The notes under the pieces were generated by a model. It was given only the letters and a program-made list of their open reading frames with translations, ran no database searches and had not been told where the DNA came from. Positions 51 to 28,414 of a DNA stretch of 64,000 nucleotides are shown here, piece by piece. Origin of the DNA: Salminus brasiliensis. Lineage: Eukaryota > Chordata > Actinopteri > Characiformes > Bryconidae. The position numbers were made by a program, and so were the translations under genes. The number at the start of each line of letters is the position of its first letter. The first letter of the stretch is position 1. The DNA lies in the NCBI RefSeq assembly GCF_030463535.1, contig NC_132892.1:31508436-31572435 (forward strand). Reading direction: 5' to 3'.

Positions 51-634
51 GTGATTGTAAAAATGTCTTCAGACATTGTAATGGTGTGTTTATTGGCTCA
101 TCCGTTACCTGTTTGGCCCGGGCAGCTCCTTGGCCTTTCTGTGGAGGGTTCCGACTACGGCTCATTATTGCTGGTACAGCGTCAGAGCTGAAAACAAACA
201 AACCCCCAAGAACTTAGAACTATATAACAATATTATAATATTATACATGGTATCACTCATGACGGCTCAGTGCATTTCATGTCCTAGAAGCTTTTATATA
301 TTTAAGAATATATGCATTAATATGGTTTGCTGCCGAGAACCTGCTGAATTTCTCCACTATGTGAAACTGGAAATGAATTGCAAAGGATCGACAGCTCTCA
401 GCCTAAACACTGCACCCACCAAACCAGACACCCAGGTGCTTCCTATCAGAGTAAAGAAGGCAGAGAAGGGGAAGGGCCCTGTGATAGAAGCCCGGCCACA
501 CTCATATCATTAGGATGGAGGCTGTAACTACACCCCTGCGATCAGATAAAACTCTTACTGGTCTTACAGGGCTGGATTCCTGCAGTGTTGTGCTGCACAC
601 CTGTTTCGACTCACCTGCCAGGTTTAGCCAGGAA

Positions 635-668
<34 letters not shown>

Positions 669-1149
669 CCACCTTCAGGCCTGTAACCCACCTGAACGGG
701 ACGGTTTCTGGGGGGGGGGTCAGGACTTTCATATTTATAAAGCTGCTCAAAGCAGGAGTGCAAATCTAGGAGCTGCCCCTGCCCGTGACGTCACACACCT
801 GATCCTAGATCAGCAGTTTGACCTGGAGTACATTCATGAATATGGGCACAGGTGTGTTAGGACAGGGGGAACAGGTCACTGTGGAGTGCAGGTGGTCTAA
901 GGACCTACAGAAGGACCTTCAGAAGGACCTTCAGCTGGAACACACGAGCTATAGCAGAATGGATCAGAACCAAGACCAGAACCAGAACCAGAACCAGAGC
1001 CGGATCCACACCTGGTCCTGTTTTTACATCGTGGCCAGTATAACAGGCAGCCCACAGCTGTGAAATCCAGAGGCTCAGAGCTGCAGGTCCAGGTCCAGTC
1101 CTGGTGCTGACGTTAGCTACCTACCTGCTACAGCTAGCGAGAAGCTAAA
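51..1149. other. no gene recognised; short local tandem repeats
   Basis: No reading frame here looks like a real gene; the frames of 80-130 codons have biased or repetitive composition. There are three small tandem repeats: a 9-bp gccctcgcc unit near 640-669, a 12-bp aaggaccttcag unit near 898-935, and a 6-bp accaga unit near 968-1000. If the first exon at 1240 belongs to a minus-strand gene, this stretch is probably its first intron. Confidence 0.5.
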
Positions 1150-1189
1150 GCGCTAGCTATCTATCTATCTAAATGAACCAATATTGCCC

Positions 1190-1400
1190 TTAAACACAGC
1201 GAGACACGGCGAGCCCCGCTACCTTCCGGAAGACCTTACCTCCAGCATGTGTTTCTGCTTCGTTTAAAGATGTTAAACTCTGTTATTTCTCCACTTTTCT
1301 CCGATGTTTTCCTCCGAGAGCTGCTGCTGCTGCTGCTGCGGCGGCCACTTCCTGCTTTTCGCCTGGTTTCCAATAGCAACCAGAGCGCTTTACGACACTA
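1190..1400 (-). promoter_or_regulatory. GC-rich, possibly bidirectional promoter
   Basis: This is a CpG-containing island in AT-rich surroundings. It holds an ETS-type palindrome (cttccggaag near 1223), another ETS-like acttcctgc near 1347, and an inverted-CCAAT-like ccaatagc near 1370. It lies immediately upstream of the minus-strand first exon. A plus-strand start here could serve brme1, with a possible donor (gaag|gtgaag) near 1719. If so, the giant minisatellite would lie in brme1 intron 1. No plus-strand first exon is proven. Confidence 0.4.
1240..1372 (-). other. probable first exon of a minus-strand gene leaving the window at left
   Basis: On the minus strand an ATG at 1248-1246 is followed by two codons (Leu, Glu) and then a strong splice donor, GAG|GTAAGG, after 1240. 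Upstream lies GC-rich DNA with a (GCA)n/(GCC)n run. The next exon is not in the window, so the product cannot be read and the ATG may be untranslated. Gene order suggests cc2d1a, which I recall being head-to-head with BRME1 (C19orf57) in human. That identification is inference only. Confidence 0.4.
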
Positions 1401-1740
1401 GCCTTACAATTAATTTAAAATTAAATAATTTATTTTTTTTACGTTTTTAATACTTATGTAAAGTCATTTTTTAATATATTAAAATAGTAAAATAGAAGGA
1501 AAAATAATAAGAGGCGTTTTGTGAAGAGCAGTGTTTTTGGGCTGATTTGTAAACACAGTCTCGCCTTTTCCTCTAAAATTGTCTTTCATCATTTCTAAAG
1601 TTCTGTAAAGTCTAAGATCAGTGCAGAGCTCCGTTTAGAGGCGAACTGCACTCTGAGCTTAATAACTACTCATTAGTGCGGGTTTCACCTGTTTAATGAA
1701 GACACTGGAGGAGGAAGGTGAAGCTAAATAAGCCACAGCT

Positions 1741-4700
1741 GCTATTAACTGTGTGAGCTATTATTAACTGTGTGAGCTATTATTAGCTGTGTGAGCTATT
1801 ATTAACTGTGTGAGCTATTATTAACTGTGTGAGTTATTATTAGCTGTGTGAGCTATTATTAACTGTGTGAGTTATTATTAACTGTGTGAGTTATTATTAG
1901 CTGTGTGAGCTATTATTAACTGTGTGAGTTATTATTAACTGTGTGAGCTATTATTAACTGTGTGAGTTATTATTAACTGTGTGAGCTATTATTAACTATG
2001 TGAGCTATTATTAACTGTGTGAGTTATTATTAACTGTGTGAGCTATTATTAACTGTGTGAGTTATTATTAACTGTGTGAGCTATTATTAACTGTGTGAGT
2101 TATTATTAGCTGTGTGAGTTATTATTAACTGTGTGAGTTATTATTAGCTGTGTGAGCTATTATTAACTGTGTGAGTTATTATTAACTGTGTGAGTTATTA
2201 TTAGCTGTGTGAGCTGTTATTAACTGTGTGAGCTGTTATTAACTGTGTGAGTTATTATTAACTGTGTGAGTTATTATTAGCTGTGTGAGCTATTATTAAC
2301 TGTGTGAGTTATTATTAACTGTGTGAGTTGTTATTAGCTGTGTGAGCTGTTATTAACTGTGTGAGTTATTATTAACTGTGTGAGTTATTATTAACTGTGT
2401 GAGCTATTATTAACTGTGTGTGCTATTATTAACTGTGTGAGTTATTATTAACTGTGTGAGTTATTATTAGCTGTGTGAGCTATTATTAGCTGTGTGAGCT
2501 ATTATTAACTGTGTGAGCTATTATTAGCTGTGTGAGTTATTATTAACTGTGTGTGCTATTATTAGCTGTGTGAGCTATTATTAACTGTGTGAGCTATTAT
2601 TAACTGTGTGTGCTATTATTAGCTGTGTGAGCTATTATTAGCTGTGTGAGCTGTTATTATTAACTGTGTGAGCTATTATTAGCTGTGTGAGCTATTATTA
2701 GCTGTGTGTGCTATTATTAGCTGTGTGAGCTATTATTAGCTGTGTGTGCTATTATTAGCTGTGTGAGCTATTATTAGCTGTGTGTGCTATTATTAGCTGT
2801 GTGTGCTATTATTAGCTGTGTGTGCTATTATTAGCTGTGTGAGCTATTATTAGCTGTGTGTGCTATTATTAGCTGTGTGAGCTATTATTAGCTGTGTGTG
2901 CTATTATTAGCTGTGTGAGCTATTATTAGCTGTGTGTGCTATTATTAGCTGTGTGAGCTATTATTAGCTGTGTGTGCTATTATTAGCTGTGTGAGCTATT
3001 ATTAGCTGTGTGTGCTATTATTAGCTGTGTGAGCTATTATTAGCTGTGTGTGCTATTATTAGCTGTGTGAGCTATTATTAGCTGTGTGAGCTATTATTAA
3101 CTGTGTGAGCTATTATTAACTGTGTGAGTTATTATTAGCTGTGTGAGCTATTATTAACTGTGTGAGTTATTATTAGCTGTGTGAGCTATTATTAGCTGTG
3201 TGAGCTATTATTAACTGTGTGAGTTATTATTAGCTGTGTGTGCTATTATTAGCTGTGTAAGCTATTATTAGCTGTGTGTGCTATTATTAGCTGTGTGTGC
3301 TATTATTAGCTGTGAGCTATTATTAGCTGTGTGTGAGTTATTATTAGCTGTGTGAGTTGTTATTATTAGCTGTGTGAGCTATTATTAACTGTGTGAGCTA
3401 TTATTAACTGTGTGAGTTATTATTAACTGTGTGAGCTATTATTAGCTGTGTGTGCTATTATTAGCTGTGTGTGCTATTATTAGCTGTGTGAGCTATTATT
3501 AACTGTGTGAGTTATTATTAGCTGTGTGTGCTATTATTAGCTGTGTGAGCTATTATTAACTGTGTGAGCTATTATTAACTGTGTGAGTTATTATTAACTG
3601 TGTGAGCTATTATTAGCTGTGTGAGCTGTTATTAGCTGTGTGAGCTATTATTAGCTGTGTGAGCTATTATTAACTGTGTGAGTTATTATTAACTGTGTGA
3701 GCTATTATTAACTGTGTGAGTTATTATTAGCTGTGTGTGAGTTATTATTAGCTGTGTGAGCTATTATTAACTGTGTGAGTTATTATTAGCTGTGTGTGCT
3801 ATTATTAGCTGTGTGAGCTATTATTAACTGTGTGAGCTATTATTAACTGTGTGTGAGTTATTATTAGCTGTGTGAGCTATTATTAGCTGTGTGAGCTATT
3901 ATTAACTGTGTGAGCTATTATTAACTGTGTGAGTTATTATTAACTGTGTGAGCTATTATTAGCTGTGTGAGCTGTTATTAGCTGTGTGAGCTATTATTAG
4001 CTGTGTGAGCTATTATTAACTGTGTGAGTTATTATTAGCTGTGTGTGCTATTATTAGCTGTGTGAGTTATTATTAACTGTGTGAGTTATTATTAGCTGTG
4101 TGAGCTATTATTAACTGTGTGAGCTATTATTAGCTGTGTGAGCTATTATTAACTGTGTGAGCTATTATTAGCTGTGTGTGCTATTATTAGCTGTGTGAGT
4201 TATTATTAACTGTGTGAGTTATTATTAGCTGTGTGAGCTATTATTAACTGTGTGAGTTATTATTAGCTGTGTGAGCTATTATTAGCTGTGTGTGCTATTA
4301 TTAGCTGTGTGTGCTATTATTAGCTGTGTGAGTTATTATTAACTGTGTGAGTTATTATTAGCTGTGTGAGTTATTATTAGCTGTGTGTGCTATTATTAGC
4401 TGTGTGTGCTATTATTAGCTGTGAGCTATTATTAGCTGTGTGTGAGTTATTATTAGCTGTGTGAGTTGTTATTATTAGCTGTGTGAGCTATTATTAACTG
4501 TGTGAGCTATTATTAACTGTGTGAGTTATTATTAACTGTGTGAGCTATTATTAGCTGTGTGTGCTATTATTAGCTGTGTGTGCTATTATTAGCTGTGTGT
4601 GCTATTATTAGCTGTGAGCTATTATTAGCTGTGTGTGAGTTATTATTAGCTGTGTGAGTTGTTATTATTAGCTGTGTGAGCTATTATTAACTGTGTGAGT

Positions 4701-7700
4701 TATTATTAACTGTGTGAGCTATTATTAGCTGTGTGTGCTATTATTAGCTGTGTGTGCTATTATTAGCTGTGTGAGCTATTATTAACTGTGTGAGTTATTA
4801 TTAGCTGTGTGTGCTATTATTAGCTGTGTGAGCTATTATTAACTGTGTGAGCTATTATTAACTGTGTGAGTTATTATTAACTGTGTGAGCTATTATTAGC
4901 TGTGTGAGCTGTTATTAGCTGTGTGAGCTATTATTAGCTGTGTGAGCTATTATTAACTGTGTGAGTTATTATTAACTGTGTGAGCTATTATTAACTGTGT
5001 GAGTTATTATTAACTGTGTGAGTTATTATTAGCTGTGTGAGTTATTATTAACTGTGTGAGTTATTATTAGCTGTGTGTGCTATTATTAGCTGTGTGAGCT
5101 ATTATTAACTGTGTGAGCTATTATTAACTGTGTGTGAGTTATTATTAGCTGTGTGAGCTATTATTAACTGTGTGAGTTATTATTAGCTGTGTGTGCTATT
5201 ATTAGCTGTGTGTGCTATTATTAGCTGTGTGAGTTATTATTAACTGTGTGAGCTATTATTAGCTGTGTGAGCTTTTATTAACTGTGTGAGTTATTATTAA
5301 CTGTGTGAGCTATTATTAGCTGTGTGAGCTGTTATTAGCTGTGTGAGCTATTATTAGCTGTGTGAGCTATTATTAACTGTGTGAGTTATTATTAACTGTG
5401 TGAGCTATTATTAGCTGTGTGAGCTATTATTAGCTGTGTGTGCTATTATTAGCTGTGTGTGAGTTATTATTAGCTGTGTGAGCTATTATTAGCTGTGTGA
5501 GCTATTATTAACTGTGTGAGCTATTATTAACTGTGTGAGCTATTATTAGCTGTGTGAGTTATTATTAACTGTGTGAGTTATTATTAGCTGTGTGTGCTAT
5601 TATTAGCTGTGTGAGCTATTATTAACTGTGTGAGCTATTATTAACTGTGTGTGAGTTATTATTAGCTGTGTGAGCTATTATTAACTGTGTGAGTTATTAT
5701 TAGCTGTGTGTGCTATTATTAGCTGTGTGAGCTATTATTAACTGTGTGAGTTATTATTAACTGTGTGAGCTATTATTAGCTGTGTGAGCTGTTATTAGCT
5801 GTGTGAGCTATTATTAGCTGTGTGAGCTATTATTAACTGTGTGAGTTATTATTAGCTGTGTGTGAGTTATTATTAGCTGTGTGAGCTATTATTAACTGTG
5901 TGAGCTATTATTAGCTGTGTGAGCTATTATTAGCTGTGTGTGAGTTATTATTAGCTGTGTGAGCTATTATTAGCTGTGTGAGCTATTATTAACTGTGTGA
6001 GCTATTATTAACTGTGTGAGCTATTATTAGCTGTGTGAGCTATTATTAGCTGTGTGTGAGTTATTATTAGCTGTGTGAGTTATTATTAACTGTGTGAGCT
6101 ATTATTAACTGTGTGAGCTATTATTAGCTGTGTGAGCTATTATTAGCTGTGTGTGAGTTATTATTAGCTGTGTGAGCTATTATTAGCTGTGTGAGCTATT
6201 ATTAACTGTGTGAGCTATTATTAGCTGTGTGAGCTATTATTAGCTGTGTGTGAGTTATTATTAGCTGTGTGAGCTATTATTAGCTGTGTGAGCTATTATT
6301 AGCTGTGTGTGCTATTATTAGCTGTGTGTGAGTTATTATTAGCTGTGTGAGCTATTATTAGCTGTGTGAGCTATTATTAACTGTGTGAGCTATTATTAAC
6401 TGTGTGAGTTATTATTAGCTGTGTGTGAGTTATTATTAGCTGTGTGAGCTATTATTAACTGTGTGAGCTATTATTAGCTGTGTGAGCTATTATTAGCTGT
6501 GTGTGAGTTATTATTAGCTGTGTGAGCTATTATTAGCTGTGTGAGCTATTATTAACTGTGTGAGCTATTATTAACTGTGTGAGTTATTATTAGCTGTGTG
6601 TGAGTTATTATTAGCTGTGTGAGCTATTATTAGCTGTGTGTGAGTTATTATTAGCTGTGTGAGCTATTATTAGCTGTGTGTGCTATTATTAGCTGTGTGA
6701 GTTATTATTAACTGTGTGAGCTATTATTAGCTGTGTGTGCTATTATTAGCTGTGTGAGCTATTATTAGCTGTGTGTGCTATTATTAGCTGTGTGAGCTAT
6801 TATTAGCTGTGTGAGCTATTATTAACTGTGTGAGCTATTATTAGCTGTGTGAGCTATTATTAACTGTGTGAGCTATTATTAGCTGTGTAAGCTATTATTA
6901 ACTGTGTGTGCTATTATTAGCTGTGTAAGCTATTATTAACTGTGTGTGCTATTATTAGCTGTGTGAGCTATTATTAGCTGTGTAAGCTATTATTAACTGT
7001 GTGTGCTATTATTAGCTGTGTAAGCTATTATTAACTGTGTGAGCTATTATTAGCTGTGTGAGCTATTATTAGCTGTGTGTGAGTTATTATTAGCTGTGTG
7101 AGCTATTATTAGCTGTGTGTGCTATTATTAGCTGTGTGAGTTATTATTAACTGTGTGAGCTATTATTAGCTGTGTGTGCTATTATTAGCTGTGTGAGCTA
7201 TTATTAGCTGTGTGTGCTATTATTAGCTGTGTGAGCTATTATTAGCTGTGTGAGCTATTATTAACTGTGTGAGCTATTATTAGCTGTGTGAGCTATTATT
7301 AACTGTGTGAGCTATTATTAGCTGTGTAAGCTATTATTAACTGTGTGTGCTATTATTAGCTGTGTAAGCTATTATTAACTGTGTGTGCTATTATTAGCTG
7401 TGTGAGTTATTATTAACTGTGTGAGTTATTATTAACTGTGTGAGCTATTATTAGCTGTGTGAGTTATTATTAGCTGTGTGAGCTATTATTAACTGTGTGT
7501 GCTATTATTAGCTGTGTGAGTTATTATTAGCTGTGTGAGCTATTATTAACTGTGTGAGCTATTATTAACTGTGTGTGCTATTATTAGCTGTGTGTGCTAT
7601 TATTAGCTGTGTGAGTTATTATTAGCTGTGTGAGCTATTATTAACTGTGTGAGCTATTATTAGCTGTGTGTGCTATTATTAGCTGTGTGAGCTATTATTA

Positions 7701-10700
7701 GCTGTGTGAGCTATTAGCTGTGTGAGTTATTATTAACTGTGTGAGTTATTATTAACTGTGTGTGCTATTATTAACTGTGTGTGCTATTATTAACTGTGTG
7801 AGCTATTATTAGCTGTGTGAGCTATTATTAGCTGTGTGAGCTATTATTAACTGTGTGTGCTATTATTAGCTGTGTGAGCTATTATTAGCTGTGTGAGCTA
7901 TTATTAACTGTGTGAGCTATTATTAGCTGTGTGTGCTATTATTAGCTGTGTGAGCTATTATTAACTGTGTGTGCTATTATTAGCTGTGTGTGCTATTATT
8001 AGCTGTGAGCTATTATTAGCTGTGTGAGTTATTATTAGCTGTGTGAGCTATTATTAGCTGTGTGAGTTATTAGCTGTGTGAGCTATTATTAACTGTGTGA
8101 GCTATTATTAGCTGTGTGTGCTATTATTAGCTGTGTGAGTTATTATTAGCTGTGAGCTATTATTAGCTGTGTGAGTTATTATTAGCTGTGTGTGCTATTA
8201 TTAGCTGTGTGAGCTATTATTAGCTGTGAGCTATTATTAGCTGTGTGAGTTATTATTAGCTGTGTGAGCTATTATTAGCTGTGTGAGTTATTATTAGCTG
8301 TGTGAGTTATTATTAACTGTGTGAGCTATTATTAGCTGTGTGAGTTATTATTAACTGTGTGAGCTATTATTAGCTGTGTGAGTTATTATTAGCTGTGTGA
8401 GCTATTATTAGCTGTGTGAGCTATTATTAGCTGTGAGCTATTATTAGCTGTGTGAGTTATTATTAGCTGTGTGAGCTATTATTAACTGTGTGAGCTGTTA
8501 TTAGCTGTGTGAGTTATTATTAGCTGTGAGCTATTATTAGCTGTGTGAGTTATTATTAGCTGTGTGTGCTATTATTAGCTGTGTGAGCTATTATTAGCTG
8601 TGAGCTATTATTAGCTGTGTGAGTTATTATTAGCTGTGTGAGTTATTATTAGCTGTGTGAGCTATTATTAGCTGTGTGAGCTATTATTAGCTGTGAGCTA
8701 TTATTAGCTGTGTGAGTTATTATTAGCTGTGTGAGCTATTATTAACTGTGTGAGCTGTTATTAGCTGTGTGAGTTATTATTAGCTGTGTGAGTTATTATT
8801 AGCTGTGTGAGCTATTATTAACTGTGTGAGCTGTTATTAGCTGTGTGAGTTATTATTAGCTGTGTGAGTTATTATTAGCTGTGTGAGTTATTATTAACTG
8901 TGTGTGCTATTATTAACTGTGTGTGCTATTATTAGCTGTGTGAGCTATTATTAGCTGTGTGAGCTATTATTAACTGTGAGCTATTATTAACTGTGTGAGT
9001 TATTATTAACTGTGTGAGCTATTATTAACTGTGTGTGCTATTATTAACTGTGTGAGCTATTATTAGCTGTGTGAGTTATTATTAGATGTGTGAGTTATTA
9101 TTAACTGTGTGAGCTATTATTAACTGTGTGAGTTATTATTAGCTGTGTGAGCTATTATTAACTGTGTGAGCTATTATTAACTGTGTGAGCTATTATTAGC
9201 TGTGTGAGCTATTATTAGCTGTGTGAGCTATTATTAGCTGTGTGAGCTATTATTAACTGTGTGTGCTATTATTAGCTGTGTGAGTTATTATTAGCTGTGT
9301 GAGCTATTATTAGCTGTGTGAGCTATTATTAACTGTGTGAGCTATTATTAGCTGTGTGAGTTATTATTAGCTGTGTGAGCTATTATTAGCTGTGTGAGCT
9401 ATTATTAGCTGTGTGTGCTATTATTAGCTGTGTGAGCTATTATTAACTGTGTGAGCTATTATTAACTGTGTGTGCTATTATTAGCTGTGTGAGCTATTAT
9501 TAACTGTGTGAGCTATTATTAGCTGTGTGAGTTATGATTAGCTGTGTGAGCTATTATTAGCTGTGTGAGCTATTATTAACTGTGTGAGTTATTATTAGCT
9601 GTGTGAGCTATTATTAGCTGTGTGAGTTATTATTAGCTGTGTGAGTTATGATTAGCTGTGTGAGCTATTATTAGCTGTGTGAGTTATTATTAGCTGTGTG
9701 AGCTATTATTAGCTGTGTGAGTTATTATTAGCTGTGTGAGTTATTAGCTGTGTGAGCTATTATTAGCTGTGTGTGCTATTATTAGCTGTGTGAGCTATTA
9801 GCTGTGTGAGTTATTATTAACTGTGTGAGCTATTATTAGCTGTGTGAGTTATTATTAGCTGTGTGAGCTATTATTAGCTGTGTGAGTTATTATTAGCTGT
9901 GTGAGTTATTATTAGCTGTGTGAGCTATTATTAACTGTGTGAGCTATTATTAGCTGTGTGTGCTATTATTAGCTGTGTGAGTTATTATTAGCTGTGTGAG
10001 CTATTATTAGCTGTGTGAGTTATTATTAGCTGTGTGAGTTATTAGCTGTGTGAGCTATTATTAGCTGTGTGTGCTATTATTAGCTGTGTGAGCTGTTATT
10101 AGCTGTGTGAGCTATTATTAACTGTGTGAGCTATTATTAGCTGTGTGTGCTATTATTAGCTGTGTGAGCTATTATTAGCTGTGTGAGTTATTATTAGCTG
10201 TGTGAGCTATTATTAGCTGTGTGAGTTATTATTAACTGTGTGAGTTATTATTAGCTGTGTGAGTTATGATTAGCTGTGTGAGCTATTATTAGCTGTGTGA
10301 GTTATTATTAACTGTGTGAGCTATTATTAGCTGTGTGAGCTGTTATTAACTGTGTGAGCTATTATTAGCTGTGTGAGCTGTTATTAGCTGTGTGAGCTAT
10401 TATTAGCTGTGTGAGTTATTATTAACTGTGTGTGCTATTATTAGCTGTGTGAGCTGTTATTAACTGTGTGAGCTATTATTAGCTGTGTGAGTTATTATTA
10501 ACTGTGTGTGCTATTATTAACTGTGTGAGTTATTATTAGCTGTGTGAGTTATTATTAACTGTGTGTGCTATTATTAACTGTGTGAGTTATTATTAGCTGT
10601 GTGAGCTATTATTAGCTGTGTGAGTTATTATTAACTGTGTGAGTTATTATTAGCTGTGTGAGTTATGATTAGCTGTGTGAGCTATTAGCTGTGTGAGCTA

Positions 10701-13700
10701 TTATTAACTGTGTGAGCTATTATTAACTGTGTGAGCTATTATTAACTGTGTGAGCTATTATTAGCTGTGTGAGTTATTATTAGCTGTGTGAGCTATTATT
10801 AGCTGTGTGAGCTATTATTAGCTGTGTGAGCTATTATTAGCTGTGTGAGCTATTATTAGCTGTGTGAGCTATTAGCTGTGTGAGCTATTAGCTGTGTGAG
10901 TTATTATTAACTGTGTGTGCTATTATTAGCTGTGTGAGTTATTATTAGCTGTGTGAGTTATTATTAACTGTGTGAGCTATTATTAGCTGTGTGAGTTATT
11001 ATTAGCTGTGTGAGCTATTATTAGCTGTGTGAGCTATTATTAGCTGTGTGAGCTATTAGCTGTGTGAGTTATTATTAGCTGTGTGAGTTATTATTAGCTG
11101 TGTGAGCTATTATTAACTGTGTGAGTTATTATTAGCTGTGTGAGCTATTATTAGCTGTGTGAGCTATTATTAGCTGTGTGAGCTATTATTAGCTGTGTGA
11201 GTTATTATTAGCTGTGTGAGTTATTATTAGCTGTGTGAGCTATTATTAGCTGTGTGAGTTATTATTAGCTGTGTGAGCTATTATTAGCTGTGTGAGCTAT
11301 TATTAGCTGTGTGAGCTATTAGCTGTGTGAGCTATTAGCTGTGTGAGTTATTATTAACTGTGTGTGCTATTATTAGCTGTGTGAGTTATTATTAGCTGTG
11401 TGAGTTATTATTAACTGTGTGAGCTATTATTAGCTGTGTGAGCTATTAGCTGTGTGAGCTATTAGCTGTGTGAGTTATTATTAGCTGTGTGAGCTATTAT
11501 TAGCTGTGTGAGTTATTATTAGCTGTGTGAGTTATTATTAACTGTGTGAGCTATTATTAGCTGTGTGAGTTATTATTAACTGTGTGAGCTATTATTAGCT
11601 GTGTGAGCTATTATTAACTGTGTGAGCTATTAGCTGTGTGAGCTATTATTAACTGTGTGAGCTATTATTAGCTGTGTGAGCTATTATTAACTGTGTGTGC
11701 TATTATTAGCTGTGTGAGTTATGATTAGCTGTGTGAGCTATTATTAGCTGTGTGAGCTATTATTAACTGTGTGAGCTATTATTAGCTGTGTGAGCTATTA
11801 TTAACTGTGTGAGCTATTAGCTGTGTGAGTTATTATTAGCTGTGTGAGCTATTATTAGCTGTGTGAGCTATTATTAACTGTGTGTGCTATTATTAGCTGT
11901 GTGAGTTATGATTAGCTGTGTGAGCTATTATTAACTGTGTGTGCTATTATTAACTGTGTGAGCTATTATTAGCTGTGTGAGCTATTATTAGCTGTGTGAG
12001 TTATTATTAGCTGTGTGAGCTATTATTAGCTGTGTGAGCTATTATTAACTGTGTGTGCTATTATTAGCTGTGTGAGTTATTATTAGCTGTGTGAGCTATT
12101 ATTAGCTGTGTGTGCTATTATTAGCTGTGTGAGCTATTATTAGCTGTGTGAGCTATTATTAGCTGTGTGTGCTATTATTAGCTGTGTGTGCTATTATTAG
12201 CTGTGTGAGTTATTATTAGCTGTGTGAGTTATGATTAGCTGTGTGAGCTATTATTAGCTGTGTGAGTTATTATTAGCTGTGTGAGTTATGATTAGCTGTG
12301 TGAGCTATTATTAGCTGTGTGTGCTATTATTAGCTGTGTGAGTTATTATTAGCTGTGTGAGCTATTATTAGCTGTGTGTGCTATTATTAGCTGTGTGAGT
12401 TATTATTAGCTGTGTGAGTTATGATTAGCTGTGTGAGCTATTATTAGCTGTGTGTGCTATTATTAGCTGTGTGAGTTATTATTAGCTGTGTGAGCTATTA
12501 TTAGCTGTGTGTGCTATTATTAGCTGTGTGAGTTATTATTAGCTGTGTGAGCTATTATTAGCTGTGTGTGCTATTATTAGCTGTGTGAGTTATTATTAGC
12601 TGTGTGAGCTATTATTAGCTGTGTGTGCTATTATTAGCTGTGTGAGTTATTATTAGCTGTGTGAGTTATTATTAGCTGTGTGTGCTATTATTAGCTGTGT
12701 GAGTTATTATTAGCTGTGTGTGCTATTATTAGCTGTGTGAGTTATTATTAGCTGTGTGAGTTATTATTAACTGTGTGAGTTATTATTAGCTGTGTGAGCT
12801 ATTATTAGCTGTGTGAGTTATGATTAGCTGTGTGAGCTATTATTAGCTGTGTGTGCTATTATTAGCTGTGTGAGTTATGATTAGCTGTGTGAGCTATTAT
12901 TAACTGTGTGAGCTATTATTAGCTGTGTGAGCTATTATTAGCTGTGTGTGCTATTATTAGCTGTGTGTGCTATTATTAGCTGTGTGTGCTATTATTAGCT
13001 GTGTGAGTTATTATTAGCTGTGTGAGCTATTATTAACTGTGTGAGTTATTATTAGCTGTGTGTGCTATTATTAGCTGTGTGTGCTATTATTAGCTGTGTG
13101 TGCTATTATTAGCTGTGTGAGTTATTATTAACTGTGTGAGCTATTATTAACTGTGTGAGCTATTATTAGCTGTGTGAGTTATTATTAGCTGTGTTAGCTA
13201 TTATTAACTGTGTGAGTTATTATTAGCTGTGTGAGCTATTATTAACTGTGTGAGTTATTATTAGCTGTGTGTGCTATTATTAGCTGTGTGTGCTATTATT
13301 AGCTGTGTGAGTTATTATTAGCTGTGTGAGTTATTATTAGCTGTGTGTGCTATTATTAGCTGTGTGAGTTATTATTAACTGTGTGAGTTATTATTAACTG
13401 TGTGAGTTATTATTAGCTGTGTGAGCTATTATTAACTGTGTGAGTTATTATTAGCTGTGTGAGTTATGATTAGCTGTGTGAGCTATTATTAACTGTGTGA
13501 GTTATTATTAGCTGTGTGAGCTATTATTAGCTGTGTGTGCTATTATTAGCTGTGTGAGTTATGATTAGCTGTGTGAGCTATTATTAGCTGTGTGTGCTAT
13601 TATTAACTGTGTGAGTTATTAGCTGTGTGAGCTATTATTAGCTGTGTGAGTTATGATTAGCTGTGTGAGCTATTATTAGCTGTGTGTGCTATTATTAGCT

Positions 13701-16700
13701 GTGTGAGTTATGATTAGCTGTGTGAGCTATTATTAGCTGTGTGTGCTATTATTAACTGTGTGAGTTATTATTAGCTGTGTGAGCTATTATTAGCTGTGTG
13801 AGCTATTATTAGCTGTGTGTGCTATTATTAGCTGTGTGAGTTATGATTAGCTGTGTGAGCTATTATTAGCTGTGTGTGCTATTATTAACTGTGTGAGTTA
13901 TTATTAGCTGTGTGAGCTATTATTAGCTGTGTGTGCTATTATTAGCTGTGTGTGCTATTATTAGCTGTGTGAGTTATTATTAGCTGTGTGAGCTATTATT
14001 AGCTGTGTGAGTTATTATTAACTGTGTGAGCTATTATTAGCTGTGTGTGCTATTATTAGCTGTGTGAGTTATTATTAGCTGTGTGAGCTATTATTAGCTG
14101 TGTGTGCTATTATTAGCTGTGTGAGTTATTATTAGCTGTGTGAGCTGTTATTAGCTGTGTGAGTTATTATTAGCTGTGTGAGCTATTATTAGCTGTGTGA
14201 GCTATTAGCTGTGTGAGTTATGATTAGCTGTGTGAGCTATTAGCTGTGTGAGCTATTATTAGCTGTGTGAGTTATTAGCTGTGTGAGCTATTATTAGCTG
14301 TGTGAGTTATTATTAACTGTGTGAGCTATTATTAGCTGTGTGAGTTATTATTAGCTGTGTGAGCTATTATTAGCTGTGTGAGTTATTATTAACTGTGTGA
14401 GCTATTATTAGCTGTGTGTGCTATTATTAGCTGTGTGAGTTATTATTAGCTGTGTGAGTTATTATTAGCTGTGTGAGCTATTATTAGCTGTGTGAGTTAT
14501 TATTAGCTGTGTGAGCTATTATTAGCTGTGTGAGTTATTATTAACTGTGTGAGCTATTATTAGCTGTGTGTGCTATTATTAGCTGTGTGAGTTATTATTA
14601 GCTGTGTGAGCTATTATTAGCTGTGTGTGCTATTATTAGCTGTGTGAGTTATTATTAGCTGTGTGAGCTATTATTAGCTGTGTGAGTTATTATTAGCTGT
14701 GTGAGCTATTATTAGCTGTGTGAGTTATTATTAGCTGTGTGTGCTATTATTAGCTGTGTGAGTTATTATTAGCTGTGTGAGCTATTATTAGCTGTGTGAG
14801 TTATTATTAGCTGTGTGAGCTATTATTAGCTGTGTGTGCTATTATTAGCTGTGTGAGTTATTATTAGCTGTGTGAGCTATTATTAGCTGTGTGAGTTATT
14901 ATTAGCTGTGTGAGCTATTATTAGCTGTGTGAGTTATTATTAGCTGTGTGAGCTATTATTAGCTGTGTGAGTTATTATTAGCTGTGTGAGCTATTATTAG
15001 CTGTGTGAGTTATTATTAGCTGTGTGTGCTATTATTAGCTGTGTGAGTTATTATTAGCTGTGTGTGCTATTATTAGCTGTGTGAGTTATTATTAGCTGTG
15101 TGAGCTATTATTAGCTGTGTGAGCTATTATTAGCTGTGTGAGCTATTATTAGCTGTGTGAGCTATTATTAGCTGTGTGTGCTATTATTAGCTGTGTGAGT
15201 TATTATTAGCTGTGTGAGCTATTATTAGCTGTGTGTGCTATTATTAGCTGTGTGAGTTATTATTAGCTGTGTGAGCTATTATTAACTGTGTGAGCTATTA
15301 TTAGCTGTGTGTGCTATTATTAGCTGTGTGAGTTATTATTAGCTGTGTGAGCTATTATTAGCTGTGTGAGCTATTATTAGCTGTGTGTGCTATTATTAGC
15401 TGTGTGAGTTATTATTAGCTGTGTGAGTTATTATTAGCTGTGTGAGCTATTATTAACTGTGTGAGTTATTATTAGCTGTGTGAGCTATTATTAGCTGTGT
15501 GAGTTATTATTAGCTGTGTGAGCTATTATTAGCTGTGTGTGCTATTATTAGCTGTGTGAGTTATTATTAGCTGTGTGAGCTATTATTAGCTGTGTGTGCT
15601 ATTATTAGCTGTGTGAGTTATTATTAGCTGTGTGAGCTATTATTAGCTGTGTGAGCTATTATTAGCTGTGTGAGTTATTATTAGCTGTGTGTGCTATTAT
15701 TAACTGTGTGTGCTATTATTAGCTGTGTGAGTTATTATTAACTGTGTGAGCTATTATTAACTGTGTGAGCTATTATTAGCTGTGTGTGCTATTATTAGCT
15801 GTGTGAGTTATTATTAGCTGTGTGAGTTATTATTAGCTGTGTGAGCTATTATTAGCTGTGTGAGCTATTATTAGCTGTGTGAGTTATTATTAGCTGTGTG
15901 AGCTATTATTAGCTGTGTGTGCTATTATTAGCTGTGTGAGTTATTATTAGCTGTGTGAGCTATTATTAACTGTGTGAGCTATTATTAGCTGTGTGAGCTA
16001 TTATTAACTGTGTGAGTTATTATTAGCTGTGTGAGCTATTATTAGCTGTGTGAGTTATTATTAACTGTGTGAGCTATTATTAACTGTGTGAGTTATTATT
16101 AGCTGTGTGAGTTATTATTAACTGTGTGAGCTATTATTAACTGTGTGAGCTATTATTAACTGTGTGAGTTATTATTAGCTGTGTGAGCTATTATTAGCTG
16201 TGTGAGCTATTAGCTGTGTGAGCTATTAGCTGTGTGAGCTATTATTAACTGTGTGAGCTATTATTAACTGTGTGAGTTATTATTAGCTGTGTGAGCTATT
16301 ATTAGCTGTGTGAGCTATTAGCTGTGTGAGCTATTAGCTGTGTGAGCTATTATTAACTGTGTGAGCTATTATTAACTGTGTGAGTTATTATTAACTGTGT
16401 GAGCTATTATTAACTGTGTGAGTTATTATTAGCTGTGTGAGCTATTATTAACTGTGTGAGTTATTATTAACTGTGTGAGCTATTATTAGCTGTGTGAGCT
16501 ATTAGCTGTGTGAGCTATTAGCTGTGTGAGCTATTATTAACTGTGTGAGTTATTATTAACTGTGTGAGCTATTATTAACTGTGTGAGTTATTATTAGCTG
16601 TGTGAGCTATTATTAACTGTGTGAGTTATTATTAACTGTGTGAGCTATTATTAACTGTGTGAGTTATTATTAACTGTGTGAGCTATTATTAACTGTGTGA

Positions 16701-17910
16701 GCTATTATTAACTGTGTGAGTTATTATTAGCTGTGTGAGCTATTATTAGCTGTGTGAGCTATTAGCTGTGTGAGCTATTAGCTGTGTGAGCTATTATTAA
16801 CTGTGTGAGTTATTATTAACTGTGTGAGCTATTATTAACTGTGTGAGTTATTATTAACTGTGTGAGCTATTATTAACTGTGTGAGTTATTATTAGCTGTG
16901 TGAGCTATTATTAGCTGTGTGAGCTATTAGCTGTGTGAGCTATTAGCTGTGTGAGCTATTATTAACTGTGTGAGTTATTATTAACTGTGTGAGCTATTAT
17001 TAACTGTGTGAGTTATTATTAACTGTGTGAGCTATTATTAACTGTGTGAGTTATTATTAGCTGTGTGAGCTATTATTAGCTGTGTGAGCTATTATTAGCT
17101 GTGTGAGCTATTAGCTGTGTGAGCTATTAGCTGTGTGAGCTATTATTAACTGTGTGAGCTATTATTAACTGTGTGAGTTATTATTAGCTGTGTGAGCTAT
17201 TATTAGCTGTGTGAGCTATTAGCTGTGTGAGCTATTAGCTGTGTGAGCTATTATTAACTGTGTGAGCTATTATTAACTGTGTGAGTTATTATTAGCTGTG
17301 TGAGCTATTATTAGCTGTGTGAGCTATTATTAGCTGTGTGAGCTATTAGCTGTGTGAGCTATTATTAACTGTGTGAGCTATTATTAGCTGTGTGAGTTAT
17401 TATTAGCTGTGTTAGCTATTATTAACTGTGTGAGTTATTATTAGCTGTGTGAGCTATTATTAACTGTGTGAGTTATTATTAACTGTGTGAGCTATTATTA
17501 ACTGTGTGAGTTATTATTAACTGTGTGAGTTATTATTAGCTGTGTGAGTTATTATTAACTGTGTGAGCTATTATTAACTGTGTGAGCTATTATTAGCTGT
17601 GTGAGCTATTATTAACTGTGTGAGTTATTATTAGCTGTGTGAGCTTTTATTAACTGTGTGAGTTATTATTAACTGTGTGAGTTATTATTAGCTGTGTGAG
17701 CTATTATTAACTGTGTGAGTTATTATTAGCTGTGTGAGCTTTTATTAACTGTGTGAGTTATTATTAACTGTGTGAGTTATTATTAGCTGTGTGAGTTATT
17801 ATTAGCTGTGTGAGCTATTATTAACTGTGTGAGTTGTTATTAACTGTGTGAGTTATTATTAGCTGTGTGAGTTATTATTAGCTGTGTGAGCTATTATTAA
17901 CTGTGTGAGC
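1741..17910. repeat. giant 19-bp minisatellite, about 16.2 kb and about 850 units
   Basis: An uninterrupted tandem array of the 19-mer gagctattattaactgtgt and close variants. The commonest variants change aactg to agctg, gagc to gagt, and gag to gtg. There are also 16-bp units lacking one att, 21-bp units with an extra gt, and 17-bp units. Variants are zoned. Aactg units dominate both ends and agctg units the centre. A gttatgatta variant appears only between about 9530 and 14225. Units with gtaag occur near 3250 and 6890-7370. Nothing else is inserted in the array and no reading frame is kept. Confidence 0.98.
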
Positions 17911-18059
17911 TTCAGATTCAGGAGGTGTTTCAGTCTAAAGCTCCTCTCTGACTGAAACTGTGACTCTAACACCAGTTTTACTGAAACACTAAAGGTAGAG
18001 AAATAAAGTCTGGAGACTTACACCGTTCCCTCAGTTCAGTTATCAATAATTTATATTAG

Positions 18060-19430
18060 TAATAATCAGTATGGGATAATCAATGGCACGGATTGTTAAT
18101 CTGAAGGAACAGTGAATTCATTTGAGGGAAATATTGATTAAACTCAGGGAACATTTATATAACATATATAACAGGGATTTATTTATTAAGGAAATGATTT
18201 ATTAAATTGAGGTAATGATTTTTTTAAATTCATGGAACAGAACAGGAAACAACTTAATACATTTAGGAAATTATTTATTAAATTGTGGGAATTGTTTGAA
18301 ACATTTGAGGAAACAATTTAATAAATTGAGGAAACGATTTAATAAATTGTGGGAATTGTTTATTAAATTGAGGAAATGATTTATTAAACTCAGGGAACAT
18401 TAAATAGGAGGGAATTGTTTATTAAAGAAATTATTTAAGAAATTGAGGGAATGATTTATTAAATTTAGGAAACTATTAAATTCATGGAACAGATTATTAA
18501 ATTGAGGAAACAATTTATTAAATTGAGGTAATGATTTTTTTAAATTCAGGGAACGGATTATTAAATTAAGGGAATGATTTATTATATTGAGGAAACAACT
18601 TAATACATTTAGTTTTAGTTAATGTTTTTTAATACATTATTTATTAAATTGTGGGAATTGTTTATTAAATTGAGGAAACAATTTAAGAAATTGTGGGAAT
18701 GATTTATTAAACTGAGGGAATGATTTATTAAGTTTAGGAAACTATTAAATTCAGGAAACATTATTAAATAAAGGAAACGATTTATTAAATTGAGGTAATG
18801 ATTTTTTTAAATTCAGGGATTGGATTATTAAATTAATGGAATGATTTATTATATTAAGGAAACAACTTAATAAATTTAGGAAATTATTTATTAAATTGTG
18901 GGAATGATTTATTAAATTGAGGAAACAACAAAATAAATTGAGGTAATTATTTATTAATTGGTGGGAATTATTTAACTATTTAAGAAAATGAGGGAATGAT
19001 TTAATAATAACTTAAATTTAGGGAACATATGCAATTGAGGGAAGCATTTATTAAATTCAGGGAACAGATTATTAAATTAAGAAAACAATTTATTAAATTG
19101 AGGGAATGATTTATTAAATTGAGGAAAAGACAAAATAAATTAAGGTAATTATTTATTAATTTGTGGGAATTATTTATTAAATTGAGGAAACGATTTAAGA
19201 AAATGAGGGAATGATTTATTAGTCTGAGGGAATGATTTATTACATTTAGGAAAAATATGAAATTGAGGGAATGATTTAATAAATTGAGAAAATGTATTGT
19301 TAAATTGAAGGAAGGTTGATTACATTAATGGAACACTTCTATTAAATTGAACAATGCATTAATTTGAGGGAACAATTGATTAAATTGAGGGAACAGATAG
19401 TTAAATTAAGGGGGAGAATGTATTATGAAA
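18060..19430. repeat. degenerate AT-rich repeat, about 21-bp unit
   Basis: Imperfect repeats of a unit like gaatgatttattaaattga, with gaggaaac and gagggaac variants, fill the stretch between the giant array and the first coding exon of brme1. Unit length drifts and no open frame is present. It looks like an old, decayed minisatellite and is probably intronic. Confidence 0.85.
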
Positions 19431-19549
19431 GGAAAGGTTCATGTCACACAATATATATTTTACTTGTATTATTGTTCCACACAATTAATAAATAAATTAA
19501 TAAATATTGATTCTTTTTTTTCTGTTTACACAGTTGTGCTGGAGCTGCA

Positions 19550-22500
19550 ATGAAAAGAAAGCAAACTGCAGGTTAGCTAATGTTCAGATTTAGACATTTT
19601 TCATCAGTGTTTACTGAAGGACTAAGTAAACACTGGTAGTAGTATTTGTATTATTAGCACTTTATAACTAGCTCAGCATTTCACACATCAGTACAGTGAA
19701 ACCCCCTGAATTACCAGGCAGGTTCACCTGCATTCAGTGTAAAAAGATATTGTAACTGATGGAAAGTGACTATTCCTCACTTTTCCAGAGTTCAAGCCTC
19801 CCGTGCAGAGATTTGTCAGGGTAACCAGGCAGAACAGCACAGAGAGCGCTTCATCTGCCGACACCGCAGAAATAAAGCTTACGGACTCAAAGCCAGTAGG
19901 TCTCAGTCTTCAGGAACAGCATGTTCATCCAAATTGTGTGTAATAAAAAAGAGCAAAGCTGATCTTCATCATCATCATTATCATCACCGGTTTCTTTGTG
20001 TTTCTTTTTTTCTTTAAGATCCCAGCCACCATAAACTCCAACGTCCAGTCTGCAGCCTTCTTGGACAACTCTGAAGAACATTGGCCACAAGTCGGCTTAT
20101 CGCAGTGTACAGAGAAGTCCCTCAATGCAGATGAGCATGAACTTGACTCAGGCCTGTTTGAGACCAACAGTGATGCAAAACAAGCCAGTGTGGTCATCTC
20201 AGGTAAGCTCGTACCTATCAAATACAAGCCCCAGGATGGGTCAACGTCTGACCCTGTCAGACAGCCTGAGGGTGCGGGGATGGAAGAGCAGGTGAATGAC
20301 GTCGAGGACAAATTCAGTCCTGAACGACAGACATCCTACGCAGCCCAGAGTCGTAGATGTTCCTTGGATGAGAGTGGGGACGACATGCTTTGTGGAGATG
20401 TTTCAGGTACCACAGTAGTGTCCGTAAAGGCCTGTGGAGAGACAGAATGCCTGGAGCCTCCAGCAAAGAAAAGATTAAGAAGAAGAATGGGTATGTGTGG
20501 CTTAGGAGACAGGAAGAGACGGTTCCTCCGTGAAGGACAGCCGTGTAGGCAGGCTCTTACTGAAGCAGAGAGGGAGGAAGGTGCAGTGGGGAACGTTCCT
20601 GAGGAAGAAGAGCTTCACGCTGGTACTAAAGGGACTGAGGGCACTCCTGCAGTTGCTAAAGAAACATCTGAGCACCCAGTGGATGATGAAGAAGTGTGCT
20701 ATGGCTGCATTGCTGTTACTGATGAGGATTTCGACCAAGGTTCCAAGGAAACAGCTGAGCACCCAGTTGAAGTTCCTGAGGAACAGATGTTTGGCTTGCT
20801 TGGTGTTACCAATGAAGTTTGTGGGGGTTCTAAGGAAACAGCTAATCAGCACGCTTTTGAAGGTTCCAGTAATGACCCAGTTGATACAGAGAGAATGAAC
20901 TACAGTTCTACTGGTACTGATGACGTTTCTGAAGGTAGTAAGATCATTGATGGGTGCCCCCTTGCTGCAGAAGTGAACTATGGCTCTACTGATTCTAAAG
21001 AACTTCATAATGGTTCCAAAGAAGCCACAGAGGGCCCTGTTGATGTGGCTGAGGAAGTACGCCATGCCTCTGTTTGTGTTACTGAAGTTTGTGAAGGTTC
21101 TTCAGGATCGATTGAACACATGGTTGATAAGGCGGTGATCTATGGGACTTCCAGTAGTACTGGGGTTTGTGAAGGTTCTGTAGAAACAACTGAGCATCCC
21201 ATTGCTGAAGAGGTGATCTGTGGGTCTGCTAGTGTTACTGAACCTTGTGAAGGTTCCAAAGATCCAGCCGAGTGCCCAGTTGAAGTGGCTGAAGAAGTGA
21301 GCTATGGCTCTGTTACTTCAGAAGGTTCTACAGAACCGACTGGGCACCCAGTCGAAGTGGCTGAAGAGGTGAGCTATGGCTCTATTGCTTCTGAAGGTTC
21401 TACAGAACCGACTGGGCACCCAGTCGAAGTGGCTGAAGAGGTGAGCTATGGCTCTATTGCTTCTGAAGGTTCTACAGAACCGACTGGGCACCCAGTCGAA
21501 GTGGCTGAAGAGGTGAGCTATGGCTCTATTGCTTCTGAAGGTTCTACAGAACCGACTGGGCACCCAATCGAAGTGGCTGAAGAGGTGAGCTATGGCTCTA
21601 TTGCTTCTGAAGGTTCTACAGAACCGACTGGGCACCCAGTCGAAATGGCTAAAGAGGTGAGCGATGGCTCTACCACTAATACCAATAAAGTTTCTGAAGG
21701 TTCTACAGAACCGACTGGGCACCCAGTTGAAGTGGCTGAAGAGGTGAGCTATGGTTCTACTGGAGTTACCATTGAAGTTTCTGAAGGTTCTACAGAACTG
21801 ACTGGGCACCCAATCGAAGTGGCTAAAGAGGTGAGCGATGGCTCTACCACTAGTACCAATAAAGTTTCTGAAGGTTCTACAGAACCGACTGGGCACCCAG
21901 TTGAAGTGGCTGAAGAGGTGAGCTATGGCTCTACCACTAATACCAATAACGTTCCTGAAGGTTCTACAGAACCGACTGGGCACCCAGTTGAAGTGGCTGA
22001 AGAGGTGAGCTATGGCTCTATTGCTTCTGAAGGTTCTACAGAACCGACTGGGCACCCAATCGAAGTGGCTAAAGAGGTGAGCGATGGCTCTACCACTAGT
22101 ACCAATAAAGTTTCTGAAGGTTCTACAGAACCGACTGGGCACCCAGTTGAAGTGGCTGAAGAGGTGAGCTATGGCTCTACCACTAATACCAGTAAAGTTT
22201 CTGAAGATTCTGCAGAACTGACTGGACACCCAGTTGAAGTGGCTAGAGAGGTGAGCTATGGTTCTACCACTAATACCAGTAAAGTTTCTGAAGATTCTGC
22301 AGAACTGACTGGACACCCAGTTGAAGTGGCTGAAGAGGTGAGCTATGGCTCTACCACTAATACCAGTAAAGTTTCTGAAGATTCTGCAGAACTGACTGGA
22401 CACCCAGTTGAAGTGGCTGAAGAGGTGAGCTATGGCTCTACCACTAATACCAGTAAAGTTTCTGAAGATTCTGCAGAACTGACTGGACACCCAGTTGAAG

Positions 22501-24953
22501 TGGCTGAAGAGGTGAGTTATGGTTCTACTGGTGTTACCATTGAAGTTTCTGAAGGTTCTACAGAACCGGCTGGACACTTAGTCGAAGTGGCTGAAGAGGT
22601 AAGCTATGGATCTACTGGTGCTACCAATGAAGTTTCTGAAGGTTCTCAAGAAGTGGAAGCGTGCCCAGCTGCAGTCCCAGAGATAATGCGCTACACCTCC
22701 GCTGGTGTAACCAGTGCAGTCTCCGAAGGTTCCATTAATGTTAGTAAGGAGATCCAAGAAGCTATAAGTGCATTGGAAGAAAGTGAAATGGATCTGGATA
22801 TCACACATTTGTTTTCCCCCTATCCAAACCTCTCCACGGTTGAACAAAACCCGGGTGGACCTCTACACACGAGCATGCGAGCTGACTCTGACTCTGAAGT
22901 GGAACCGGTATGTATGGCACTCACAGTTACAGGGCTGGCTGCTTCCACCGAGGCAGCATTTTCAGAGATATGTGAGACAGAGGTACCTCAGATACCCACT
23001 ACAGCTGCACCAGGGAGGACAGAGCCTGGTGGGAAATGTACCAGTAGCACGGCATGGATGAGTTTGCCAGAAGCGCCACCTACTGACCAGGAGAACTGCA
23101 TGCAGGTGAGTGAAGAAAAAAAATGGGGAAAACATAGAAAACGGTTCATAGGTCTAATATCTACCACCACCATGTTTCTTCTCATCTTTGTATGGGATGT
23201 TGATGAGGAGTAAAACAGGGACAAATCTGAACTAATAAATGTTCTGTAGGACTTATTTTGTCAGTGGTTCCAACCCAGGTCCTGGAGGACCCCCTGTCCT
23301 ACACAATGGTTTTCTTCTCCAACACACCACCTTCACTTCGTCTAGCTGATTAACTGGAATAGCTGCGCTGGGAGAATGCTCAACACTAAAATGTACAGGG
23401 CAGGGGGTCTCCAGGACAAGGGTTAAAACATTGGTTGCTTGTGTTCTTCAGGCTCTTCTAGGACAAGACATTTGTGACCCTCCGGTGATCCCTGCTGTTG
23501 CCAAACAACCGATCAGCAACCCGGCCCTGACCCTGGTTTCTGCTGAGTTTTCTCAGGAGCACAACTCTATCCCCTCATCTCTTTACTCGGTCACAGACTC
23601 CCAGCTGAACAGCATCGTGTTAGGGTGAGGAACGGGGCGATTGTGTTGGAATGAAGGCTAAGGGCATCACGGTTCACTTTAAAATAACAGATGTTGTTGT
23701 TGATAAACGGCAGATTTTAGGTAATACACTGTATGTCCAAATGTTTGTGTACTAGTCCCTGCTAATAGAATAGGACTATTCTCTGCAGCAGATCAACATC
23801 AACCTATTGGCACCATGCTGCTTAATGCCAGGCATGGGCTAGAGGGGTATAAAGCCCCTCAGCATTGAGCTGTGGAGCAGTGGAAGAGCTGTGTTCTCTA
23901 TTCCATCCAATACTTTTGGGATGAGTTGTGGAGTTTAGGATTGAGGTGGGGTAGCGATCGTTAAACCCCCTGACCTCATAGCAATGCTCCTCCAAGTCTT
24001 CTTCTCTATAATACCCTTGATTTTAGAAGAAGGAATGAATGAGCAGGTGTCCCAATACTTTTATAGGGTATATAGGGGGGGCAATACCAGACCATGGGCT
24101 AATTCTCAAACTAGTGTTCTTCTGTCCAATTGGAGAAAGACCTCAAGGCCGGTTTAAATTGTGCAGTCTTCACTTTAAAATGTGTAATGACATATTTTTA
24201 TTATTATTATTATTATTATTTATCTTCAATCTCAGCATAGAGCTGGAAGACCAACCTACCCCAGTAGACTTTGTCCACCAGGAAGATGCCACAGAGCTGG
24301 TCCGTGGCCTTATCAAAGAACTCTCATCACTGAAGTAAGGATCACTTACTGACAATGACAGTGCCTTGAAATGACTTCCTTTACTGATTATATGTCACAC
24401 CAACACACCTCCTAACCTTTACACCACAATCACCTTTGGATACAATAGAAAAAGTGAATCTTAGCAGGTGAAATCATCTTAAATCTTAAATCACAGCATT
24501 ATTCTGTTATTTGACTGATCTAGACATTTATACCTGTCTTAGGTGATTTTATCCACTGAAATGGTCTTAATCCATTGGCAGAAAAGCTTGTTTTAAGAAT
24601 TATTTCCTGAAATAAGCTAAACAACCCGCCGATGGAATAAAACACTATCAGCAGAGAAAATGACTTTTTAAAAGCCTGGAAAACAATTATACAAAATATG
24701 TCCATATGTTTGTGGACACCCCTTTTAATTAAACTCTCTAAAGCAGATCAACATAAACCTATTGGCACCATGCTGCCTAATGCCAGGTTTGGCATTAAGA
24801 AAATTTCACTGGGCCAAAAATGATGGCAATAAGAAAGTGTCCCAATACTTCTGTCCATATAGTGTATATTCATGTTTTATAGAAAGCTTATTTAGTGAGC
24901 TTATTTTAGTATTATCCATATTTCGCTTGTACCCATATTGCACTACTACTCAC

Positions 24954-25000
<47 letters not shown>

Positions 25001-25108
25001 CGTACAGTGATGGCCGCTCACAAGGAGATTGAACTCCTGCGCCGCGGAAGCAGGCCTCCAAAGCCTCCCATTCGCCGGACCTGCTGCCTTCGCAGTTCTG
25101 AGATTTAA
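19550..25108 (+). CDS. brme1: BRME1-like meiotic recombination factor, six coding exons, about 1198 aa
   Basis: Coding exons: 19550-19571, 19789-19895, 20019-23105, 23452-23624, 24236-24334, 25000-25108; all junctions are GT-AG and the phases agree. In mammals BRME1 (C19orf57) works with MEILB2/HSF2BP and BRCA2 to load RAD51/DMC1 on meiotic breaks. Identification rests on a basic N-terminus (MKRKQTAEFKPP), a very acidic Ser/Thr-rich middle, and a short C-terminal helix (ELVRGLIKELSSLNRTVMA, then HKEIELLRR) that resembles the conserved BRME1 end as I remember it. The adjacent nanos3 gene gives synteny support. Exon 3 is unusual: it encodes 1029 residues, largely tandem repeats. An in-frame potential donor at about 20203 could give a shorter isoform. 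A noncoding first exon probably lies upstream. Confidence 0.68.
20640..22640 (+). repeat. coding minisatellite in brme1 (24- and 29-residue units)
   Basis: From about 21280 to 22620 at least 16 near-identical units carry the core EGSTEPTGHPVEVAEEVSYG. They occur as 72-bp units (IASEGS start) and 87-bp units (TTNTNKVSEGS or TGVTIEVSEGS start), so every length change is a multiple of three. Flanking parts of the exon, from about 20640 and to about 22750, are older and more diverged copies of the same unit. Four consecutive SEDSAEL units near 22200-22500 are almost identical, which suggests recent amplification. Confidence 0.95.
23261..23433. mobile_element. short nonautonomous hAT-like element in brme1 intron
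   Basis: The left end, cagtggttccaacccaggtc, and the right end, reading ctccaggacaagggtt on the plus strand, are imperfect inverted complements enclosing about 170 bp. This resembles small teleost hAT-type repeats. A related fragment is near 32175 in the 3' region of the SSX2IP-like gene. The class assignment is tentative. Confidence 0.5.
23724..24080. mobile_element. Tc1/mariner-type nonautonomous element, 'tatggacaaaagtattgg' family
   Basis: The copy lies in the brme1 intron between 23624 and 24236. It carries family landmarks: a tgtccaaatgtttg end, attggcaccatgctg, the gggtataaagc core, and a gtgtcccaatacttt end. It is shorter and more diverged than the copy at 31445-31957. Confidence 0.75.
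24691..24868. mobile_element. internally deleted copy of the same Tc1-type family
   Basis: Both terminal regions (tgtccatatgtttgtggaca and gtgtcccaatacttctgtcc) and the attggcaccatgctg landmark are present within 180 bp, so most of the interior is deleted. It lies in the last brme1 intron. Confidence 0.75.
24957..24997. repeat. (CT)n microsatellite forming the last brme1 acceptor tract
   Basis: About 20 ct dinucleotides run directly into the cag acceptor of the final brme1 exon, so the microsatellite acts as its polypyrimidine tract. Confidence 0.9.
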
Positions 25109-28387: not shown

Positions 28388-28414
28388 CAGCACAAGTGGA
28401 AGGAGTTCAGCGTG

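Follow-up and report, generated by a model that had tools for sequence, protein, structure and literature searches.

A 16-kb minisatellite of 19-bp units, likely grown by block copying, at a single locus of the Salminus brasiliensis assembly and probably within the first intron of brme1

How does a 19-bp sequence come to fill 16.2 kb of DNA beside genes, and what kind of repeat is it? We addressed this question in a stretch of 64,000 nucleotides from Salminus brasiliensis (contig NC_132892.1, 31,508,436 to 31,572,435), here called the window, to which all positions refer. Tandem Repeats Finder (TRF), run on the window, delimited a giant array at 1743-17911 with a period of 19, 854.9 copies, 91% matches, 1% indels, and a score of 25952. 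This agrees closely with the preliminary description, which had read about 850 copies of a 19-bp unit at 1741-17910 and had proposed TRF as the check on period and copy number. The second-longest tandem array in the window was about 1.4 kb long.

1743..17911, plus strand: 19-bp minisatellite array of 855 units, consensus TTA(G/A)CTGTGTGAG(C/T)TATTA, from TRF and an anchored parse.

A parse anchored on TTA(A/G)(C/A)T(G/A)TG resolved the array into 855 units, all head-to-tail, and both this order and the unit size are those of a minisatellite, taken here as head-to-tail units of roughly 7 to 100 bp. Most of the 854 spacings between units were 19 bp (786), and the 68 deviating ones were 16 (34), 21 (19), 17 (11), or 22 bp (4). 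Since no spacing exceeded 22 bp, the array contains no insertions, and the earlier claim of an uninterrupted block holds. A stricter anchor gave 843 units and 12 gaps of 36 to 38 bp, each equal to two units. We distinguished 26 unit types, including the cut-off last unit, and the five most frequent made up 708 of the 855 units; variation was chiefly at a G/A site of the left arm, at a C/T site of the right arm, and at the A/T preceding the right arm. GC content of the array was about 34%, with no CpG at all.

Repeats are known to cause errors in assembly (PMC6868369), and the length might be wrong or inflated by misjoined reads. We regard such an artefact as extremely unlikely, given that the variants form a mosaic along the array with no long duplicated segment. 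Indeed, the longest exact repeat inside it is 362 bp, short enough for long reads to be placed without ambiguity.

The array stands alone in the assembly. A two-unit 45-mer with up to 3 mismatches had 704 forward matches and 0 reverse matches in the 1,066,335,885 bases (0 and 0 for a backward control), and at the same threshold 704 lay inside the window alone. A one-unit pattern with up to 1 mismatch had 828 forward and 7 reverse matches, i.e., 835 genome-wide (0 and 2 for the backward control), against 824 in the window and 0 in shuffles. Eleven one-unit matches therefore lay elsewhere; among the matches listed, five of these were visible, each of them solitary. Thus, the search for the 19-mer elsewhere in the genome, which had been suggested as a check, revealed one locus and no second array, by a pattern search that passes over very common words. 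A single locus in an assembly can mislead, since about fifty FISH signals were seen for one mouse repeat classed as single-locus (PMC3218096). A heterochromatic satellite should occur as many arrays at centromeres or in heterochromatin, whereas we found no second array, and this one sits between exons of cc2d1 and brme1.

It had also been stated that arrays this long of so short a unit are unusual outside centromeric or heterochromatic satellites. This is too strong, as mouse single-locus arrays reach 15,896 bp for a 29-bp unit, 10,312 bp for a 17-bp unit, and 4,883 bp for a 19-bp unit (PMC3218096, Table 6). The present array resembles these three (TR-29B-MM, TR-17A-MM, and TR-19A-MM) in having a single reference-genome locus and a short unit (17 to 29 bp and 4.9 to 15.9 kb in mouse), and we count the higher-order structure noted for them in that table as a further likeness. 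Their variability is 30 to 33%, against 91% TRF matches here, although these are different measures, and the mouse array of 19-bp units has 4.9 kb in contrast to 16.2 kb. Besides, as Atlantic cod shows, tandem repeats can be very abundant close to genes in a fish genome (PMC5241972). The array thus seems to be an ordinary minisatellite of an already known kind, albeit one of unusual length.

To the left of the array lies cc2d1 on the minus strand and to the right brme1 on the plus strand, followed by nanos on the minus strand and four AIG1-type open reading frames (ORFs).

109..187, minus strand: candidate first coding exon of cc2d1, MSRSRNPPQKGQGAARAKQ, ATG at 165-163, from the reading frame with borders read by eye.
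1240..1390, minus strand, right border approximate: candidate first untranslated exon and promoter of cc2d1, proposed from the donor GAG|GTAAGG after base 1240 and from CpG.
1366..1380, plus strand: GTTTCCAATAGCAAC, a possible RFX X-box by sequence resemblance.
19534..19571, plus strand: candidate ATG exon of brme1, ATG at 19550, behind the strong 3' splice site TTTTTTTTCTGTTTACACAG.
19789..25108, plus strand: remaining brme1 exons, read by eye, ending with TAA at 25106-25108; the C-terminal helix matches BRME1 chains.
27533..28444, minus strand: nanos, an open frame from stop to stop, Pfam zf-nanos with E 8.8e-24.

Three of nine tested pieces of cc2d1 matched the Pfam family CC2D1A-B_DM14, each covering a portion of the model (E 5.4e-15, 4.1e-10, and 3.2e-8). 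This model spans both CC2D1A and CC2D1B, and the gene, as judged from its sequence, is one or the other; choosing CC2D1A would rest on human gene order, in which BRME1 and CC2D1A lie head to head. The candidate exon at 109-187 was found by a widened motif search after a narrower one had missed it. The donor after 1240 scored 6.4 bits, and the surrounding sequence had a CpG observed/expected ratio of 1.15 over 1201-1500 at a GC of 0.39, with 12 CpG in 1201-1400; a second CpG cluster at 601-800 reached 0.66. The element at 1366-1380 resembles the RFX X-box motif.

On the other side, the joined C-terminal exons of brme1 matched Pfam PF15710 (Brme1) with E 1.8e-11, and their helix matched the PDB chains 8a51_B (E 6.5e-7) and 7z8z_B (E 8.2e-7). 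The long ORF at 19947-23213 had by itself no Pfam or PDB match, and a Pfam search with the N-terminal peptide, joined from two exons, likewise found nothing. BRME1 is described in PMC7498267 as a meiotic recombination factor that binds HSF2BP. Our literature search returned a study of horse breeds naming BRME1 together with CC2D1A, and nothing joining BRME1 with the term bidirectional promoter. Within the long ORF, at 21275-22732, there are tandem repeats of 72/87 bp in frame, encoding peptides like SEGSTEPTGHPVEVAEEVSYGS. A 29-bp minisatellite of 41 copies (28840-30050) begins about 400 bp upstream of the nanos ORF, making nanos a second germline gene with an array near its 5' end. The four AIG1/GIMAP-type GTPase ORFs occupy 42471-63132 on the minus strand, and at least one of them bears a long charged tail.

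The preliminary description had placed the array between genes. Splice-site scoring leads us to think that it is probably intronic, lying in intron 1 of brme1, rather than plainly intergenic.

1715..1723, plus strand: candidate 5' splice site AAG|GTGAAG, 3.3 bits, putative end of brme1 exon 1 at 1717.
18176..19412, plus strand: degenerate 21-bp AT-rich tandem array (TRF), in the same proposed intron, right after the giant array.

The acceptor TTTTTTTTCTGTTTACACAG before 19534 ranked 6 of the 4744 AGs in the window by an ad hoc score, with the next brme1 acceptor at rank 26, and a strong acceptor 16 bases ahead of the ATG makes a spliced upstream exon likely. As its donor we propose AAG|GTGAAG, which lies 25 bp ahead of the array and was the sole donor of at least 2.5 bits in 1380-1760, with donors scored by human donor frequencies. 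The donor of the ATG exon likewise had 3.3 bits, and four of the five donors guessed for brme1 scored 3.3, 8.5, 4.9, and 3.0, while the fifth gave nothing. With the end of exon 1 at 1717, the intron would be 17,816 bp long, and the array would constitute 91% of it. It is conceivable, although we think it less probable, that brme1 begins downstream and that the array is intergenic, having merely pushed brme1 away from cc2d1. The intron call is built on sequence scores with a weak exon 1 donor, two donors in 17880-19500 outscore it (3.5 and 4.4 bits against 3.3), and the brme1 N-terminal peptide lacks a Pfam match. However, those two, the only ones above 3.3 bits there, sit within the AT-rich degenerate repeat, with 0 to 2 CpG per 200 bases, and the acceptor before the ATG calls for an upstream exon. 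The array may also hide or break the annotation of the 5' end of brme1.

The 21-bp array at 18176-19412 had 66% matches in its longest TRF row. We considered a shared origin with the 19-bp array, and 329 of 1000 shuffles aligned as well, so that no relation was detectable. The flanks had been described as full of transposable elements, and this was borne out in part: a fragment of a Tc1/Sleeping Beauty-type transposase occurs at 45856-46311, and a dispersed element at 23660-24180 in a brme1 intron matched 39 other places with 75 to 85% identity, among the 40 scored of 6968 candidates. Of the 45 matches of 1-1200 beside itself, 41 were to simple repeats in its first 52 bases.

How the array grew can be read from the order of its units. 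Adjacent units were identical in 13.5% of pairs, compared with 16.1% when the whole array was shuffled (29 of 2000 shuffles as low) and 20.1% (sd 1.3%) when units were shuffled inside 50-unit blocks (none of 2000 as low). Over distances of 2 to 10 units, likeness ranged from about 20 to 24%: it was 20.0% at a distance of 2 units, 22.9% at 3, and 21.7% on average at 4 to 10, and fell to 17.9% at 31 to 60 and 15.2% at 201 to 400. Without a stretch of alternating A and E units, the deficit persisted (13.4% against 19.6% shuffled, sd 1.3%; 0 of 1000 as low), and the observed figure was below the shuffle mean in each third of the array (19, 68, and 22 of 1000 shuffles as low). Besides, there were 21 pairs of exact repeats of at least 8 units, some overlapping, and 20 of them lay within 70 units, whereas 20 local shuffles gave a mean of 0.25 and a maximum of 1; the longest were of 18 units (23 apart) and 17 units (67 apart). 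Since the exact multi-unit repeats are mostly nearby, short blocks appear to have been copied locally many times, and the array has interspersed variant repeats with multi-unit rearrangement.

Crude toy simulations at constant array length were scored for neighbours less alike than distant units, with units 4 to 10 apart clearly more alike. Events of 1 or of 1 to 3 units produced this pattern in 0 of 120 runs, and events of up to 10 or 30 units in 21 of 240. As even block events seldom yielded it, block copying accounts for part but not all of the low likeness between neighbours; identical neighbours may, for instance, disappear faster than mismatched ones. The suggestion of recent growth or continual homogenisation can thus be narrowed: the block structure favours local homogenisation, and a single recent burst is not supported, because no exact internal repeat exceeds 362 bp and the 26 unit types are mixed along the array.

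Replication slippage aided by hairpins, as discussed for the human minisatellite MSY1, is unlikely to have driven the growth, although several observations agree with it. Each unit holds two overlapping dyads, TAGCT-GTGTG-AGCTA and AGCTA-TTAT-TAGCT, by which single strands could fold back and slip, and gains and losses of GT and TTA within units look slippage-like. Single-stranded DNA of the array folds much more strongly than shuffled sequence, with z -7.6 on one strand of 5000-5300, -9.0 on the other, and -7.7 at 13000-13300; RNA folding of one piece gave z -2.1. The MSY1 repeat is also predicted to form hairpins (PMC2599865), and D1S80 changes mostly one unit at a time, with 6 of 7 mutations single-unit (PMC3356730), which indicates that some human minisatellites do change singly. 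However, three neighbouring arrays gave z +1.8, -6.3, and -2.7, so strong folding is not confined to the giant array, and the array with z -6.3, made of 16-bp units, is only 0.6 kb long; folding alone thus makes no giant. One-unit events should also leave runs of identical neighbours, the opposite of what we observed. MSY1 shares the short hairpin-prone unit, but has 48 to 118 units with blocked variants and no unit-length variants, whereas the present array has 855 units with interspersed variants and four other spacings (PMC2599865 for MSY1). Finally, the arm variants were without clear covariation: arm matching within units had a log odds ratio of 0.44, compared with a mean of -0.05 (sd 0.15) over 120 other offsets, one of which reached 0.49. 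Compensatory changes are therefore not separable from the other offsets and give no proof of selection on pairing.

Human hypervariable minisatellites such as MS32, CEB1, and MS1/D1S7 undergo multi-unit changes. The present array resembles these in its interspersed variant repeats, which are seen at many autosomal loci (PMC2599865). Unlike most human hypervariable minisatellites, which lie near chromosome ends according to the same source, it is about 5.3 Mb from the end of its 36,871,833-base contig, and is thus not subtelomeric. Local meiotic recombination has also been suggested to generate most human minisatellites as a by-product (PMC2599865). Taking these points together, we consider it likely that the array is a single-locus, probably hypervariable minisatellite that grew by block copying and that it most likely lies in intron 1 of brme1, where it is spliced out and functionless. 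Short multi-unit blocks would have been copied repeatedly, both expanding the array and keeping it homogeneous, through out-of-register recombination or conversion rather than single-unit slippage or one late burst. The array would then be separated from the cc2d1/brme1 promoter region by a few hundred bases and be removed with the intron. We infer the hypervariability, the role of recombination as the cause, and the absence of function. Block copying has left its record in the order of the 855 units, which speaks against slippage and a single burst, so that the array offers a clean and fully readable example of how such a long minisatellite can be built up apart from the usual satellites; if variable, it would also be a very informative marker.

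Two readings would give the array a function. It might be a regulatory element, i.e., a dense cluster of binding sites or of splice-donor-like words near a germline promoter, selected for length. The array adjoins the proposed promoter and contains 287 TGT|GTGAGT words, and PMC13373173 describes a human enhancer made of tandem repeats that has 45 PU.1 motifs. However, these words reach just 1.1 bits as donors, the top acceptor inside the array has a score of 8.4, compared with 13.5 for that of the brme1 ATG exon, and 1-20000 had no match to a known RNA in Rfam, all of which makes a regulatory role quite improbable. More speculative still, and in our opinion very improbable, is that the array is an active landmark of meiotic recombination, with a chain of overlapping palindromes within intron 1 of a gene for meiotic recombination, beside a shared germline promoter; identical neighbours would be lost and mismatched ones protected, heterogeneity would keep the length, and allele length would feed back on brme1 transcription or local crossing over. 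A genome search for SSXRD, bearing on PRDM9 status, gave 0 matches, but as control genomes likewise gave none, this negative is uninformative.

Returning to the block-copied minisatellite, we also considered an origin of its unit from the flanks, where the left border has a look-alike, GTGAAGCTA. Alignments to the unit were no better than shuffles for the left 60 bp (466 of 1000 as good), left 25 bp (99), right 60 bp (165), left 300 bp (931), and right 200 bp (549), and this candidate was therefore dropped. Far to the right, at 58691-59974, the window holds an almost pure A+T tandem array of 1.3 kb, with a GC content of 4.7% over 59001-60000.
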